Source: Plesiomonas shigelloides (GTDB taxonomy: Bacteria; Pseudomonadota; Gammaproteobacteria; Enterobacterales; CAMTGL01). Taken from it: 64,000 nt of DNA. How positions within the stretch are numbered: the stretch's first letter is position 1; each line of letters opens with the position of its first letter. The position numbers and the translations under genes were made by a program. Location: assembly GCF_900087055.1 (NCBI RefSeq), contig NZ_LT575468.1:1612001-1676000 (forward strand). The letters are read 5' to 3'. This document shows, in pieces, positions 39,975 to 46,252 of this stretch. The notes beneath the pieces are model-generated. The model was not told where the DNA came from and searched no databases. It was given only the letters and a program-made list of their open reading frames with translations.

Positions 39975-40393
39975 CTACTCTCGTCACTTAATGTTTCTAC
40001 ACATCATGTTTCTACACACGGCTCGCCATACTTTCCAATCAATGCTGAACTTCAATCTCTATCGGTAACCTCGGCACGAGTCCCGTTTAAGTATGGATGA
40101 TGCCAGATACACGGTGAGTGGTGCGTCTGTGAAATTCTTTGCCTAGGTCATCGGGTTCACACTTTACGGACTATACACTGGCTTTATGGACTCTTGAGTC
40201 TCGCTACTGTTGAGAGTGTCGTGGTCGCATTTTGCTGCGTGCTGACGGCGCGTTGCGGCTCAAATCACCGACAATGTTCAAATAAGCTGGGCTGGTGACT
40301 TTGTTATCTGCTGAACCTTGTCTATCTTTAGAAGAAAATACCGAACATTATTCTTTGCTGCCGTGTTTTCTTTCGCTAGAAGAGGGGATTGCC

Positions 40394-40807
40394 ATGGAGT
40401 CCATTAAAGTTGCTGATTATATGCATCGCAAGATCGTGACACTGTCACCCAAAATGACGCTGACGGGTGCGCTAAAGGTTCTGCTGGATAATCAGCTGAC
40501 TGGCGCTCCGGTGGTTGATGCGCACGGTATGTTGGCCGGATTTATCTCCGAACAAGACATGATCAAACGCTTGCTCAGTGCGTCGTACCATAACAGTGAG
40601 TTTTCCTATGTGTCTGATTTGATGCGAACCGAAGTCCTGACGGTTGCTCCTGATGACTCTGTGGTGGAGATTGCACAGATGATGGCGCAACAAAAACCGA
40701 AGATTTATCCGGTTTGTCTGGATGGTCGTGTGGTGGGCATTATAGATCGCCATGACATTATGCGCGCTATATATAACCATCTTTCCAAGAATCACAATGT
40801 CATATAA
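40394..40807 (+). CDS. CBS-domain protein
   Basis: 137 residues forming one CBS pair: VADYMHRKIVTLSPKMTLTGALKVLLDNQLTGAPVVDAHGMLAGFISEQDMIKRL and VSDLMRTEVLTVAPDDSVVEIAQMMAQQKPKIYPVCLDGRVVGIIDRHDIMRAI. Such modules bind adenine nucleotides and regulate partners. GAGGGGA stands before the ATG. The frame runs upstream to 40295 without a start signal. Confidence 0.88.
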   Translation: MESIKVADYMHRKIVTLSPKMTLTGALKVLLDNQLTGAPVVDAHGMLAGFISEQDMIKRLLSASYHNSEFSYVSDLMRTEVLTVAPDDSVVEIAQMMAQQKPKIYPVCLDGRVVGIIDRHDIMRAIYNHLSKNHNVI

Positions 40808-41017
40808 CTGAGTTGGTTTATGGCGGTAGTGATATTGACTGTTCATTGCGCACAAGTTCGGAGTTTTCCATTGTGCCGTTCCGAGCTGTGCGCTTGGTCC
40901 AAAAATAGATATCTAATTGATTCATTATGTTTTTCTGACATAACTCACGGCGATTTTTCCCCAGTCTGAGATGATATCCGTAACTTTTTTATGGATTATT
41001 AAAGACGGTGGTTACGC

Positions 41018-42442
41018 ATGGATAGAGAAACCTACGGTTCATGGCGGTTTTGGCTCAAAACCTTGCCCTTTTTGTTGTTTATCCTCATTTTATTAGCTCC
41101 TTCCGACTGGTTTATGATGCCGGGCTTGACCACCATCGAGCAGCGCGTGATTGCTATTTTTGTCTTAGCCGCGCTCTGTTGGATCCTCGAACCGATTCCT
41201 ATCTATGCCACTTCAGTGCTGATTATCGTGCTGGAATTACTGCTGATCTCCGATAAATCGATTTGGCTGGCATTGCCCGCAAACGATGAACTGGCATTCG
41301 GCACCCAGCTGGGTTACCAAGAGATCATGGCGACCTTTGCCTCGCCAATCATCATGCTGTTTCTGGGCGGGTTCTTTCTGGCCATGGCGGCGACCAAATA
41401 CCGCCTTGACGTGAACTTAGCCCGGGTTCTGCTCAAACCGTTCGGACGTAACCCACGCAACGTGATGATGGGGCTGATGGTGGTGACGGCAGTGTTCTCG
41501 ATGTTTATGAGTAACACAGCGACTACGGCCATGATGTTGTCGATTTTGACGCCGGTGCTGGCGGCGCTGCCGGCAGGGGATCGCGGACGTGTAGCGTTTG
41601 CACTGTCTATTCCCGTGGCGGCGAATATTGGCGGGATTGGTACGCCGATTGGTACGCCACCGAATGCAGTTGCGCTCAAGTATTTGACCGGTGAGAACGC
41701 GATTTCCTTTGGTGAATGGATGATGTTCGGCGTGCCATTTGTGATGGTGATGCTGGTTATCAGCTGGATCTTGCTCAACACCTTCTATGCTTCGGAACAA
41801 AAAGAAATTGATGTTCAGATTCGCGGTAAGTTTTTGAAAACCGGTAAAGCCTATCTGGTGTATGTCACCTTTATTGCGACCGTTTTGCTATGGATGTTTG
41901 GCAGTGCGCACAACATGAACTCCTACGTGGTGGCGCTGATCCCAGTGGCGGTGTTTGTCTCTTCCGGGGTGATCACCCGTGATGACATGAAAAAGATGTC
42001 GTGGGACGTGCTCTGGTTAGTATCGGGCGGTATTGCGCTGGGCTTGGCGTTGGAGAAAACCGGTTTAGCGGCACGCTTGGTGCACAGCATTCCGTTTGCT
42101 GACTATCCGGCGGTTGCAGTGCTGTTAGGAGCGGTTGCGCTGACCTTGATCATGGCTAACTTTATGTCACACACTGCCACGGCCAACTTGTTGTTACCAC
42201 TGATGGCGGCGCTGGCGGGGACGGTTTCAGGGTTGAATGAAGTCACACTTATCTTGGCGGTGACTTTTGCCGCATCCTTAGGGATGGCGCTGCCGATCAG
42301 TACGCCGCCTAACGCTCTGGCCCATGCCACGGGAATGGTGGAGTCATCACAAATGGCAAAAACCGGCACGTGGCTTGGCATCATCGGCGTGGTGCTGTGC
42401 TTGATGATGTTGGCGCTGCTTGGGCAGTTGGGGGTGATCTGA
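41018..42442 (+). CDS. DASS-family (SLC13) sodium/dicarboxylate-type symporter
   Basis: 474 residues with about 11 membrane segments. The first SNT motif is MSNTATT (165-167), the repeat is MSHTATA (384-386), and each is followed by a GTPxGTPPN-type loop (208-216; LPISTPPN). This is the layout of VcINDY. The substrate should be a dicarboxylate or a similar anion. It is the first gene of an operon with its own two-component pair, and its stop overlaps the kinase start as TGATG. Confidence 0.92.
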   Translation: MDRETYGSWRFWLKTLPFLLFILILLAPSDWFMMPGLTTIEQRVIAIFVLAALCWILEPIPIYATSVLIIVLELLLISDKSIWLALPANDELAFGTQLGYQEIMATFASPIIMLFLGGFFLAMAATKYRLDVNLARVLLKPFGRNPRNVMMGLMVVTAVFSMFMSNTATTAMMLSILTPVLAALPAGDRGRVAFALSIPVAANIGGIGTPIGTPPNAVALKYLTGENAISFGEWMMFGVPFVMVMLVISWILLNTFYASEQKEIDVQIRGKFLKTGKAYLVYVTFIATVLLWMFGSAHNMNSYVVALIPVAVFVSSGVITRDDMKKMSWDVLWLVSGGIALGLALEKTGLAARLVHSIPFADYPAVAVLLGAVALTLIMANFMSHTATANLLLPLMAALAGTVSGLNEVTLILAVTFAASLGMALPISTPPNALAHATGMVESSQMAKTGTWLGIIGVVLCLMMLALLGQLGVI

Positions 42443-43851
42443 TGCCCGTATCTGCAACGCAACCGACTGTGTTTGAGCGCATTATCCGCGATTATTTCAC
42501 GCATCCGGCGCAGCGGGTCACCTTGCTGCCCGGTGATGTGCTGATGGACCAAGGCGAGTTCAATGAGCGGCTCTATTACGTGCATTCTGGGCAGCTGATC
42601 GCCACGGTCAGTGCGCCGGATGATGTGGGGGAAGAGGAGCAAGCCGAGCTGTTTTTGGCAAGCCCGGGCACCTTTATCGGGGTGCACAGTTTCTTCTCTT
42701 ATCGACTGGTGGCCTCTAGCCGCGTAGTCGCGCAGACGGAGGCTGAGCTGGCGTGGATAGATATCCGCACGCGACCGGTCGATCCTGAATTGCACGGCAG
42801 CTTGAGTGAGCAGTTTATGCCGGTGATCGTGGAGGAGTTGCAGCGTCGGCAATGGCGTTTGAGCCAGATGGCGCGTGAGCGCGAGGCTGCCAACCGCCGT
42901 TTGCATATGGCGGAGAAGCTCTCGACGCTCGGGCAGCTGGCTGCTGGCTTGGCGCATGAGTTGAATAATGCCGTCGGAGTACTGGCGCGCAAATCCGATT
43001 ATCTGAGCGGGGTGTTGCGGATTTTGCTGCAGGAGAAATCGCCGTCGTTGATCAGTTGGTTTGACCGAGGTCAGCAGACCGGACAAACCGCATCAAGCTC
43101 GGTGGTGCGCCAACAAGCGGCGGAGTTGCGTCGTCGTTTTGGGTTAGCGCCGGAGCAAGCGAAAACCTTGGCGCGCGCATTGGATGATGGCGCTATCCCG
43201 ACCGAATTACCACAGCCGCTCGAGGGCGCGTTGCAGCTCTGGGAGATCGGGCGTGATTGCTATGACATGCAACTGGCGGCGTCTCATGCCTCTGGCATCG
43301 TCAAATCGGTGAAGCAGTTAGGCGGTGGCGATTATCAGCGGCAGTGGGGAATTGATGTCAATGAATCTGTCCGCGAAGCCTTGGCGCTACTGCAAAGTCA
43401 TTTGCGTGAGGTTAATGTTGATTTGAATCTGGGGCAATTACCGCCTTTGTATGGAAATACCACCGAACTGGTGCAGGTTTGGGTCAATATCATCAAAAAT
43501 GGTTGGGATGCGATGAAAGATGCGCAAACCCCAGATCCCACCATCAAAATTTCTACCCGTGCCGGTAAACGCTCGATTCAGATTTCACTGGCCAACAATG
43601 GCCCGATGATCCCTGAAGAGGTGGCGGCGCGTATTTTCCAGCCCAATTTTACGACCAAAACCATGTCGGCGCGTCGCCAAGGGCAAACGGTCGGGTTGGG
43701 GTTGGGTTTGTATATCGTTAAGCGCTTGGTGGAGAGTTATGGCGGAGACTTACTCTTGAAAAGCACGCCAGAATATACCCGTTTTCGAGTTCGGTTGCCG
43801 CTGCAGGCGGAGCCGCTGTCATCGCCAGAACGCCATGATGACGATGAATAA
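42442..43851 (+). CDS. Sensor histidine kinase with cNMP-binding-like N-terminal domain
   Basis: 469 residues. The N-terminal 110 residues (RVTLLPGDVLMDQGEFNERLYYVHSGQLIATV, PGTFIGVHSFFS) look like a cyclic-nucleotide-binding beta-roll used as a sensor. A coiled-coil linker (about 125-160) leads to the phosphoacceptor site LAAGLAHELNN (His172). The ATPase has NIIKNGWDAMKDA, NNGPMIPE and GLGLGLYIVKRLV. There is no membrane segment, so the kinase is cytosolic. It is translationally coupled to the transporter. Confidence 0.88.
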   Translation: MPVSATQPTVFERIIRDYFTHPAQRVTLLPGDVLMDQGEFNERLYYVHSGQLIATVSAPDDVGEEEQAELFLASPGTFIGVHSFFSYRLVASSRVVAQTEAELAWIDIRTRPVDPELHGSLSEQFMPVIVEELQRRQWRLSQMAREREAANRRLHMAEKLSTLGQLAAGLAHELNNAVGVLARKSDYLSGVLRILLQEKSPSLISWFDRGQQTGQTASSSVVRQQAAELRRRFGLAPEQAKTLARALDDGAIPTELPQPLEGALQLWEIGRDCYDMQLAASHASGIVKSVKQLGGGDYQRQWGIDVNESVREALALLQSHLREVNVDLNLGQLPPLYGNTTELVQVWVNIIKNGWDAMKDAQTPDPTIKISTRAGKRSIQISLANNGPMIPEEVAARIFQPNFTTKTMSARRQGQTVGLGLGLYIVKRLVESYGGDLLLKSTPEYTRFRVRLPLQAEPLSSPERHDDDE

Positions 43852-43918
43852 TTGCGTGTTTGCGGCAGGCGAAACGGGTGTGTGCTGGAGTTGGTGGTGA
43901 GTTAGCCATTATCGAGGC

Positions 43919-43952
43919 TAGTAGCGAAGCTAATTATTTATCTTCGCTACTA
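43919..43952 (+). promoter_or_regulatory. Intercistronic hairpin between kinase and response regulator
   Basis: Perfect 11-bp arms TAGTAGCGAAG / CTTCGCTACTA around a 12-base AT-rich loop, in the 182-bp gap. No T-run follows. It could be an RNA stability or partial attenuation signal that lowers or separates expression of the regulator. Confidence 0.45.
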
Positions 43953-44033
43953 ACATCAGCCTTCGCGGCATAACCGCAACACCCTACGTGAGCCTGTGCT
44001 GGCACAAGCAAAGGGATTTTACAGGAGGTCAAA

Positions 44034-44510
44034 ATGGAAAAGCTGTATCTGATTTGTGTGGATGATCAGCGAGATGTGCTGAGCGCTGTCGTCAGAGATC
44101 TCGAAAAGCTGAGTGACTGGGTCTGTATTGAAGAGAGTGAGTCCGCCGATGAAGCGGCGGGGTTAATGGACGAACTCGATGCCGAAGGTTGTCCGATTGC
44201 GTTAGTGATTTCCGATCATATTATGCCGGGCAAAAGCGGGGTCGATTTTCTGGCCGATATTGCCCAAGATATGCGCTTTATCCAAACCAAAAAGATTTTG
44301 CTGACCGGACAGGCATCTCACAAAGACACTATAGATGCGGTGAACCGAGCGCGTATTCAGCACTACATTGAAAAACCGTGGCAACCGGAGCCGCTGTTGG
44401 CAATTTGCCGTAAATTGCTGACCGAGTATCTGTTTGATACCGGTATGGATGTCACGCCTTATATTGAGTTTGCCGACCAAGCGGTGTTGCTGGAGCGTAT
44501 GCGCGACTAG
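44034..44510 (+). CDS. Response regulator, receiver domain only
   Basis: 158 residues: acidic pocket VDDQ (Asp10, Asp11), phosphoacceptor Asp61 in LVISDHIMPGKSG, Thr91 in LLTGQ and Lys114 in IEKPW. The C-terminal 40 residues form no known output domain. It probably acts by protein contact with the neighbouring kinase or transporter. AGGAGGT precedes the ATG. Confidence 0.9.
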   Translation: MEKLYLICVDDQRDVLSAVVRDLEKLSDWVCIEESESADEAAGLMDELDAEGCPIALVISDHIMPGKSGVDFLADIAQDMRFIQTKKILLTGQASHKDTIDAVNRARIQHYIEKPWQPEPLLAICRKLLTEYLFDTGMDVTPYIEFADQAVLLERMRD

Positions 44511-44535
44511 CACCATCTTGATTGCCGCAGACAAA

Positions 44536-44565
44536 ATGAGCCCCAGTATTGGGGCTCATTTGTTT
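44536..44565 (+). terminator. Operon terminator after the response regulator
   Basis: ATGAGCCCC, loop AGTATT, GGGGCTCAT then TTGTTT. Confidence 0.9.
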
Positions 44566-44607
44566 CGGTATACCCGATTTTCCGGCAGTGATTCTCTTTA
44601 TTGCGTG

Positions 44608-45405
44608 TTATTCGCGGTACAGCTTCACCAGCTCAGGATCGAGTACCCCTTGCGGGGTGAGTGTGACGCGCAGGCTCATCATCAGCATTAAAGTGGATGA
44701 CAAAGTGGTGCAAGCCAGCAGTGAGAGCATCACCAGAATCTGGTATTTAATTGCCAACAAAGGGCTATTACCGCCCAAAATCTGGCCGGTCATCATGCCC
44801 GGTAACGAGACAATCCCCAGCGTTGCCATCGACAAAATTGTCGGCGACCATGCCGAGCGCATAGCTTGGCGGACGTACGGTAAGGCGGCTTCCCACGGCG
44901 TTGCACCCAGCGACAGATCCATCATCCACATCGGTTGTTGGTTGACGACGGCGCGATAAAAACGATCTAACACCAGATAGTTCGCGGTGAGGGCATTACC
45001 CAGTAACATACCGGCTAGCGGGATGGCAAAGCGCGCATCAAACCACGGCGTAGGCTGCAAAATCACCACCAGCAAATAGCCGAGGATCAGCAATGCGCCG
45101 CAGCTTATTCCTGCGAAAACCGGCAAGAATAAGCGCTTACGTGGCAGTGGGGTGCGTTTGATGGCGTTGGAGGCGGCGGCGCTCATCATCACCAGCAGCC
45201 ATGCAGCGTTGACCCACAGATTATTCAGTTTAAACAGATATTCCAAATACACGCCGATCAGCGCCAGCTGCACAATCATGCGCAGGCTCGACTTCACAAT
45301 GTCTTTGCCCAGTTTCAGTTGTAACCAGCGGCTGAGAAGCAGCGGAATACCCAGCAATAACACACCGAGCGCGACATCGGTCCAACTGACAAATAACTCA
45401 TCCAT
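44608..45405 (-). CDS. fetB: Iron export ABC transporter permease FetB
   Basis: 265 residues with about seven membrane segments, including SSLRMIVQLALIGVYLEYLF, GMLLGNALTANYLVLDRF, the EALPYVRQAM-like EAALPYVRQAMRSAWSPTIL and GIVSLPGMMTGQILGG, the UPF0014 (YbbM/FetB) signature. With FetA it exports iron and protects against peroxide stress in E. coli. The gene overlaps the end of fetA by 8 bp. Confidence 0.9.
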   Translation of the reverse strand: MDELFVSWTDVALGVLLLGIPLLLSRWLQLKLGKDIVKSSLRMIVQLALIGVYLEYLFKLNNLWVNAAWLLVMMSAAASNAIKRTPLPRKRLFLPVFAGISCGALLILGYLLVVILQPTPWFDARFAIPLAGMLLGNALTANYLVLDRFYRAVVNQQPMWMMDLSLGATPWEAALPYVRQAMRSAWSPTILSMATLGIVSLPGMMTGQILGGNSPLLAIKYQILVMLSLLACTTLSSTLMLMMSLRVTLTPQGVLDPELVKLYRE

Positions 45406-46063
45406 GCGCCAGTACCTGCAATTGTTGGTTTTCGATATGCCAATGTTGGTTGCAGAAGGCCACCATATCGGGGTCATGGGAGACGCTGAGCAGCGTACAA
45501 CCTAATTGCTCGAGCAGGGCAAACACGCGCTGCTTGCTATCGGCATCCAAGGCTGAGGTGGGCTCATCGGCAAACAAAAACGGACGGTTCAGCTGCAAGC
45601 AGCCGGCTAGCCCGATACGTTGCCGTTGTCCGCCAGAGATATCTGCCATGCGCTGTTGCAAGGTCTCCGGCTCTAAGCCAAGTGCGGCCAGCAGCGCTTG
45701 TGGCTGGCAAATGTCTGGCGGTGTGGTGGCGGTGGCTTGATTGAGCTTAAAGCTGCGCAAGCGCTCCAGATAAGTATCTACCTGCATATCCAGTGGCGGG
45801 ATCTGCTGTGGTAGGTAGGCGATTTTTTGCCGAATAGCCTGCTGCGTGAGCGGAGACACTGGTTGGTCAAACAGCCAGACTGTACCGCTGTCGGCCGGAT
45901 ACATACCGGATAAAATTCCCAGCAGGGTGGTTTTGCCGCTGCCGGACATCCCCGTTAGCGCGACGCGTTCAGCGCGGCGAATTTCGGCTGAAAACGGAGC
46001 AATCAAGGGCTGTCCATTCAGCGCAACGCTAACCTGATCGGCGCGTAATACCGTATTGGTCAT
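45398..46063 (-). CDS. fetA: Iron export ABC transporter ATPase FetA
   Basis: 221 residues: Walker A GMSGSGKTT (38-46), signature ISGGQRQRIGLA, Walker B FLFADEPTSALD and SVSHDPDMV. The pairing with fetB identifies it. The start at 46063 is chosen by alignment with ATPases of this group; the frame is open to 46108, and no good ribosome site is seen. Confidence 0.88.
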   Translation of the reverse strand: MTNTVLRADQVSVALNGQPLIAPFSAEIRRAERVALTGMSGSGKTTLLGILSGMYPADSGTVWLFDQPVSPLTQQAIRQKIAYLPQQIPPLDMQVDTYLERLRSFKLNQATATTPPDICQPQALLAALGLEPETLQQRMADISGGQRQRIGLAGCLQLNRPFLFADEPTSALDADSKQRVFALLEQLGCTLLSVSHDPDMVAFCNQHWHIENQQLQVLAHG

Positions 46064-46252
46064 AAGTGATGTGTAATGATTCGTGGAGTGATGAGTGAGA
46101 GTATGCATCTGGCTCGTATCAAGCGTGCTAGGCGATTGACCGAGCAGATGTTTTCTGGATAAGCATCATGCATGGAATAGGTCAGGTAGACAAGTTTCTG
46201 CGCACTTTATTCATACAAATCGTATCTGTAATTCATTCAAATTAGCGCATCT

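Follow-up and report, generated by a model that had tools for sequence, protein, structure and literature searches.

A lone receiver as a candidate regulatory partner of a DASS transporter in Plesiomonas shigelloides and its relatives

Introduction

What does a response regulator without an output domain do beside a membrane transporter? Most two-component systems act via gene expression. The question is raised by a locus of Plesiomonas shigelloides (NZ_LT575468.1), where the open reading frames (ORFs) place three plus-strand genes in line at 41018-44510 of the 64,000-nucleotide stretch analysed here (the window, to whose positions all coordinates refer): a DASS transporter, a soluble histidine kinase and a lone receiver. 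A preliminary description had named this very set, and it was borne out, with three same-strand genes, matched families and a receiver that matches PF00072 only. The comparative evidence presented below suggests direct action of the lone receiver on a secondary transporter. It is on balance probable, though not by much, that the receiver would serve the type-A DASS transporter (defined below) as its dedicated regulatory partner, switched by phosphorylation where a kinase exists.

Results

The conserved core of the locus

The kinase was used to scan genome contigs, and the best 80 of the 392 loci obtained were kept (the related loci). Their sources are Vibrio, Photobacterium, Aliivibrio, Shewanella and some of their relatives. 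Isolated copies also turned up in Desulfovibrio, in four Akkermansia metagenome-assembled genomes (MAGs) and in one MAG each of Nitrospinia and Oceanospirillales, for which mis-binning of MAG contigs is possible. A receiver ORF was present in 80/80 of these best loci and a transporter ORF in 76/80, the four without one being three Neiella loci and the Nitrospinia contig, which begins about 340 bases before the kinase match. No further gene family occurred in more than 26/80 loci within about 6 kb.

Gene arrangement was surveyed in 219 genomes of the taxonomic order, each at least 95% complete, by searching the three proteins (with at most 7, 17 and 7 candidates scored in a genome) and comparing positions. 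Transporters at least 60% identical to that of the window were called type A and less similar ones type B, and neighbours were defined as lying within 2.5 kb. Among 46 type-A transporters, 42 had a receiver neighbour, 16 a kinase neighbour and 26 a receiver without a kinase, and 4 had no receiver. A receiver adjoined only 2 of the 48 paralogous type-B transporters, against 42/46 for type A (Fisher test, 2e-19, with genomes that are not independent). The conserved core is the transporter and the receiver, not the trio. The three-gene unit of the preliminary description recurs in 76/80 of the best kinase loci, but as an indivisible unit it was rejected, because 26/46 close transporters keep the receiver without a kinase neighbour. 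A sample of the class (357 genomes, at least three from the window's order besides the window's own) contained no type-A transporter and no stand-alone receiver outside the window's genome at cut-offs of E <= 1e-100 and E <= 1e-17, respectively; four other receiver matches lay inside open frames of 635-913 codons, and two other kinase matches were partial.

A second, long kinase family (open frames of 623-672 codons) has its own adjoining receiver in 30/40 loci. The other 10 loci all belong to one genus, in which the kinase stands alone; in 8 of these 10 genomes the transporter is adjoined by the receiver or receivers, so that the long kinase is there the likely kinase of that receiver. Many genomes hold both kinase paralogs and both types of receiver.

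These counts bear on the possibility that the receiver acts on another pathway and that the transporter is only a co-regulated neighbour. Among 78 stand-alone receiver homologs, 51 were near a kinase, many of them away from a transporter, 39 were near a type-A transporter and 4 near neither. Moreover, at E <= 1e-60 no transporter was matched in two genomes that keep a long kinase and a receiver (G011 and G035), and a third (G172) keeps a receiver with neither a kinase nor a transporter match. Yet the receiver stays with type-A transporters where no kinase adjoins, in four loci with a transporter-receiver-transporter tandem arrangement and in two loci where the receiver comes first, and it adjoins almost none of the type-B transporters. 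We regard action on another pathway as rather unlikely.

Receivers without a kinase match or phosphosite

The genus with lone long kinases was sampled with 20 genomes, of which 12 carry the long kinase and 19 the receiver. The phosphoacceptor Asp61 is kept in all 12 long-kinase genomes, versus Gly61 in 6 of the 7 receiver-bearing genomes without a kinase match; the exception is G172, which is also without a transporter match. The association of kinase absence with Asp61 loss gave a Fisher p of 2.6e-4 without correction for kinship. In the receiver tree the Asp-less receivers fall into two separate clades, indicating about two independent losses of Asp61. The larger clade is nested among receivers of full operons and is sister to those of G077, G194 and G224, Vibrio-family genomes with no kinase match, whose receivers keep Asp61 and have Ser for Thr91. 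The smaller clade (G114 and G138) is placed among transporter-receiver pairs of the 20-genome genus.

Asp-less receivers lie beside the transporter in all five fully fetched regions (L110, L112, L121, L123 and L125); in the sixth case, G579, the analysis covered the receiver match. They remain under purifying selection: two pairs of Asp-less receivers gave dN/dS of 0.061/0.734 and 0.016/0.247, and the transporters of the same pairs 0.044/0.881 and 0.024/0.650, while two comparisons with G087 had saturated dS. Retention of transporter and receiver without the kinase, even after phosphosite loss, was unexpected and would agree with regulation exerted on the transporter protein itself, which the preliminary description had put forward as a possibility.

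Two further explanations are affected by these receivers. The first is an ordinary two-component operon, whose receiver would be a phosphate sink or a relay intermediate ending in gene expression. The coexistence of two kinase paralogs with two receiver types would suit it, and a phosphate-sink receiver, DifD, is known (PMC12802240). A sink needs its phosphosite, however, and the six retained receivers of the genus are without Asp61, which makes this explanation very improbable. The second reverses the flow of information, with the transporter as a sensor of flux or substrate and the receiver as an adaptor that reports to the kinase, as DctA does with DcuS. Gene linkage would be equally expected, and transporter co-sensors are known (PMC4280142). 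But the receivers persist by the transporter, phosphosite gone, in genomes that yielded no kinase of the family, so that none is left to report to, and no conserved output gene is seen, since no other family exceeds the 26/80 loci given above. We consider reverse flow quite unlikely.

Two faces of the receiver

Conserved positions of the receiver were divided between an active face (beta-to-alpha loops) and an opposite, far face (alpha-to-beta loops and the C-terminal extension), all other positions being excluded. The comparison used positions with at least 90% conservation across 98 reference receivers, and a group was scored as keeping a position when the consensus residue occurs in more than half of its members; the far-face set comprises D49, D79, R81, F82, T85, A106, G137, Y140, L147 and D148. 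In the larger Asp-less clade (three distinct sequences), 10/24 active positions and 10/10 opposite positions were kept (p = 0.0017). Nine receivers that lie beside a long kinase and are untied to a type-A transporter kept 20/24 and 2/10 (p = 0.0009), a difference of which part may be ancestry, because they form their own clade. In these two groups the faces have thus eroded in opposite directions. The three kinase-less receivers with Asp61, which are also among the 98 references, kept 15/24 and 10/10 (p = 0.034). The transporter-less receivers showed two (G011), three (G172) and no (G035) far-face changes.

Several observations, in addition to the receivers found away from a transporter, weigh against a dedicated transporter partner or against its link to the kinase. 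Four type-A transporters, all of one genus (f25), have no neighbouring receiver. The three kinase-less Vibrio-family genomes retain Asp61. Among the 12 long-kinase matches in the sampled genus, a stop codon falls inside three, and one is without the first 191 residues. The faces were assigned from the predicted strands and helices of the receiver model. The G114/G138 pair kept 20/24 active and 10/10 opposite positions (p = 0.30), that is, with little active-site decay; at conservation cut-offs of 0.85 and 0.95 the contrasts of the larger Asp-less clade and the long-kinase receivers stay below 0.02, and the other two miss 0.05. The window receiver itself differs from the consensus at V140 and A147, both of them among the ten far-face positions. 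Finally, the far face is also preserved in five receivers that adjoin a short kinase but whose fetched locus holds no complete transporter ORF, with 0 or 1 of the 10 positions changed.

Features of the three proteins

The transporter gene (41018..42442, plus strand) encodes a 474-residue DASS/SLC13-type secondary transporter that matches TIGR00785 (DASS sodium-coupled anion symporter) with 274.2 bits, above the cut-off of 198.6. Type A is monophyletic with respect to 21 type-B sequences (support 0.949). The closest solved structures are PHO90 of yeast (146 bits) and VcINDY of Vibrio cholerae (136 bits), both of the DASS family. The first substrate motif, SNT, is shared with VcINDY and occurs in 104/104 type-A and 21/21 type-B sequences. 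At the second motif, the window and 88/104 type-A sequences have SHT, as PHO90 does, and 16/104 type-A and 21/21 type-B sequences have SNT, as VcINDY does. In VcINDY the SNT motifs touch the substrate carboxylates (PMC9098524). A type-A specificity other than plain C4-dicarboxylates is possible.

In Akkermansia the transporter is longer, with 580-612 residues (L095:4105-5940, L096-L098), and the extra early part of the L095 protein matched no confident Pfam family. No fusion of transporter and receiver was seen, though no search was aimed at fusions.

The kinase gene (42442..43851, plus strand) encodes 469 residues, whose parts were read from Pfam matches, the alignment and a predicted structure (mean pLDDT 84.5, pTM 0.49): a beta-roll (25-107), a 74-residue helix bearing His172, a three-helix insert (201-247), a second long helix and the ATP-binding domain (HATPase_c, 67.7 bits). 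Hydropathy revealed no membrane helix (best 19-residue mean 0.99), and the kinase is, judged by its sequence, soluble and cytosolic, as the preliminary description had held. The phosphoacceptor His172 (codon CAT, 42955..42957, plus strand) lies in the H-box GLAHELNN and is present, like Asn175 and Asn176, in 87/87 aligned rows. Asn353 of the N box is also found in 87/87, and the F-box and G-box motifs FQPNFTTK and GLGLGL are invariant or nearly so. The DxG box of histidine kinases usually has Asp; its position here holds Asn in 79/87 rows and Asp in 8/87, the other catalytic motifs being intact. A Foldseek search of solved structures ranked the kinase core of ZraS first, and the best 50 matches each for the kinase and receiver models were kinase cores and receivers of many kinds, with no closer relative.

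The beta-roll had been described as a cyclic-nucleotide-binding-like (cNMP-binding-like) sensor. The fold holds, as residues 26-106 (42517..42759, plus strand) match PF00027 with 29.4 bits, barely above the gathering cut-off of 27.5, but the pocket is not of the cyclic-nucleotide type. CRP-type pockets have a phosphate-binding cassette with Gly-Glu and Arg. The family motif here is G-V-H-S-F-F where CRP-type proteins have G-E (in a register to CRP set by eye), which makes a cyclic nucleotide an unlikely ligand, and a conserved Arg is missing around the site where one would be expected (position 94 has Thr in 71/87 rows and Arg in 5/87). A cyclic nucleotide is thus not favoured, the pocket being without the Glu/Arg signature. 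Near the start of the second long helix, W267, G270, D275 and H282 are invariant and D272 and H274 nearly so, the window having Tyr for His274; this cluster is possibly a second sensing or metal site.

The long kinases have an N-terminal receiver-like region (L118:2959-4896; L042:193-2139, minus strand), which matched PF00072 with 45.7 bits in the Photobacterium copy and was unrecognised in the other copy tested. In 12/80 related loci, all of Photobacterium (L020-L042, L051), the long kinase is encoded on the other strand, a few kilobases ahead of a CBS-transporter-kinase-receiver run, so that both kinases cluster there. Remnants were also observed: in G107 a kinase fragment and a receiver share one reading frame, and in G152 a transporter fragment is followed by a receiver fragment (L106:3057-3860, L120:3225-3988).

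The receiver gene (44034..44510, plus strand) encodes a 158-residue single-domain response regulator (PF00072, 48.8 bits) with no other family at E <= 0.01, hence no DNA-binding domain found. It keeps the acidic pair D10 and D11, T91, K114 and D61, whose codon (GAT, 44214..44216, plus strand) is intact in the window and reads Gly in several kinase-less relatives. The predicted structure (mean pLDDT 92.1) places helix 5 at 118-136 and an extra helix at 149-156, within a conserved C-terminal extension of about residues 137-158.

Gene spacing and neighbouring genes

The TGA stop of the transporter gene and the ATG start of the kinase gene share one base in TGATG (42440-42444), the coupling that had been noted for this locus. 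The receiver gene has its own strong ribosome-binding site, AGGAGGT, and follows the kinase gene after a 182-nt gap that holds a perfect 11-bp hairpin (43919..43952, plus strand). The hairpin before the receiver had been called strong, and it is real: its pattern, with up to 3 mismatches allowed, matched once in the window versus 0.00 times on average over 100 shuffles, the pattern of its 8-bp inner stem occurs at a single place in the whole genome, and the gap folds with z = -3.23, 1 of 200 shuffles being equally good. It is, however, not a feature of the related loci examined, whose kinase and receiver genes overlap by a median of 14 nt (80 loci; largest gaps 71-218 nt, in four loci). The gap and hairpin of the window are therefore exceptions, and a role of the hairpin as a conserved control element was rejected. 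Nor do the two Rfam matches at E <= 1 support such a role, their 18.5 and 18.1 bits lying below the gathering scores of 50 and 42.

Downstream of the receiver gene, 44536..44566 (plus strand) contains an inverted repeat with 10-bp perfect arms followed by TTTGTTT; it was read from the letters as terminator-like and is unlisted by a scan that also found no sigma-70-like promoter in 40700-44700. Just upstream, a gene for a CBS-pair protein (40385..40807, plus strand; PF00571, 95.8 bits) ends 210 bp before the transporter gene; a homolog lies upstream in 26/80 related loci, and the gene is a candidate member only. On the minus strand at 44608-46108, genes for a UPF0014 membrane protein and an ABC ATPase (Pfam), presumably a Fet-type pair, converge on the receiver gene.

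Discussion

Our fuller proposal, which we hold with less than even confidence, is that the receiver may be a dedicated subunit of an elevator-type transporter, bound by its far face, phospho-switched in some species and, in about two kinase-less lineages, phosphorylation-independent after phosphosite loss. For binding, the direction of control, phosphotransfer from this kinase, the ligand and the substrate, we infer the following from the comparisons. The cytosolic kinase probably senses an internal cue via its cNMP-like domain, unsuited to a cyclic nucleotide, and its intact catalytic residues and adjacency suggest that it phosphorylates Asp61 of the receiver. The receiver would bind the transporter, or something inseparable from it, by the far face (residues of about 79-85 and 137-148). 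Linkage, retention and selection suggest that this contact changes uptake, and phosphorylation of Asp61 would shift it, so that uptake is tuned at the protein level. In species without the kinase the contact may still be useful, perhaps as a fixed setting or with another input.

Species that retained the receiver without kinase and phosphosite serve as a natural control. The locus offers a way to test how regulators with a single domain recognise their targets, and how vibrios and their relatives may tune the uptake of dicarboxylates or other anions without new protein synthesis.

DcuR binds DNA, and the kinase and regulator types of KguS/KguR differ from those here. DcuS/DcuR with DctA resembles the present locus in tying a C4-dicarboxylate transporter to a two-component system. 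There, however, the kinase is membrane-bound and the transporter is a co-regulator (PMC4280142), whereas the present locus combines a soluble kinase with a regulator lacking an output domain. In uropathogenic E. coli, the KguS/KguR genes are likewise tied to alpha-ketoglutarate use and transport (PMC3694859, PMC5318444), but the control of transporters there is transcriptional (PMC5318444). The accessible parts of the open-licence literature yielded no report of a DASS transporter with a receiver or with this kind of kinase.

The nearest described mechanism that we found is that of EpsW acting on EpsZ in Myxococcus xanthus, where a single-domain regulator acts post-translationally (PMC12802240). 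The target there is a phosphoglycosyl transferase, not a transporter, the interaction is backed by experiments there and inferred here, and the available text mentions no phosphosite-less versions. The likeness is that the regulator is encoded in the locus of its membrane target and receives its input from a separate system (PMC12802240). As for EpsW, the kinase here is separable, 26/46 type-A transporters having a receiver without an adjacent kinase.

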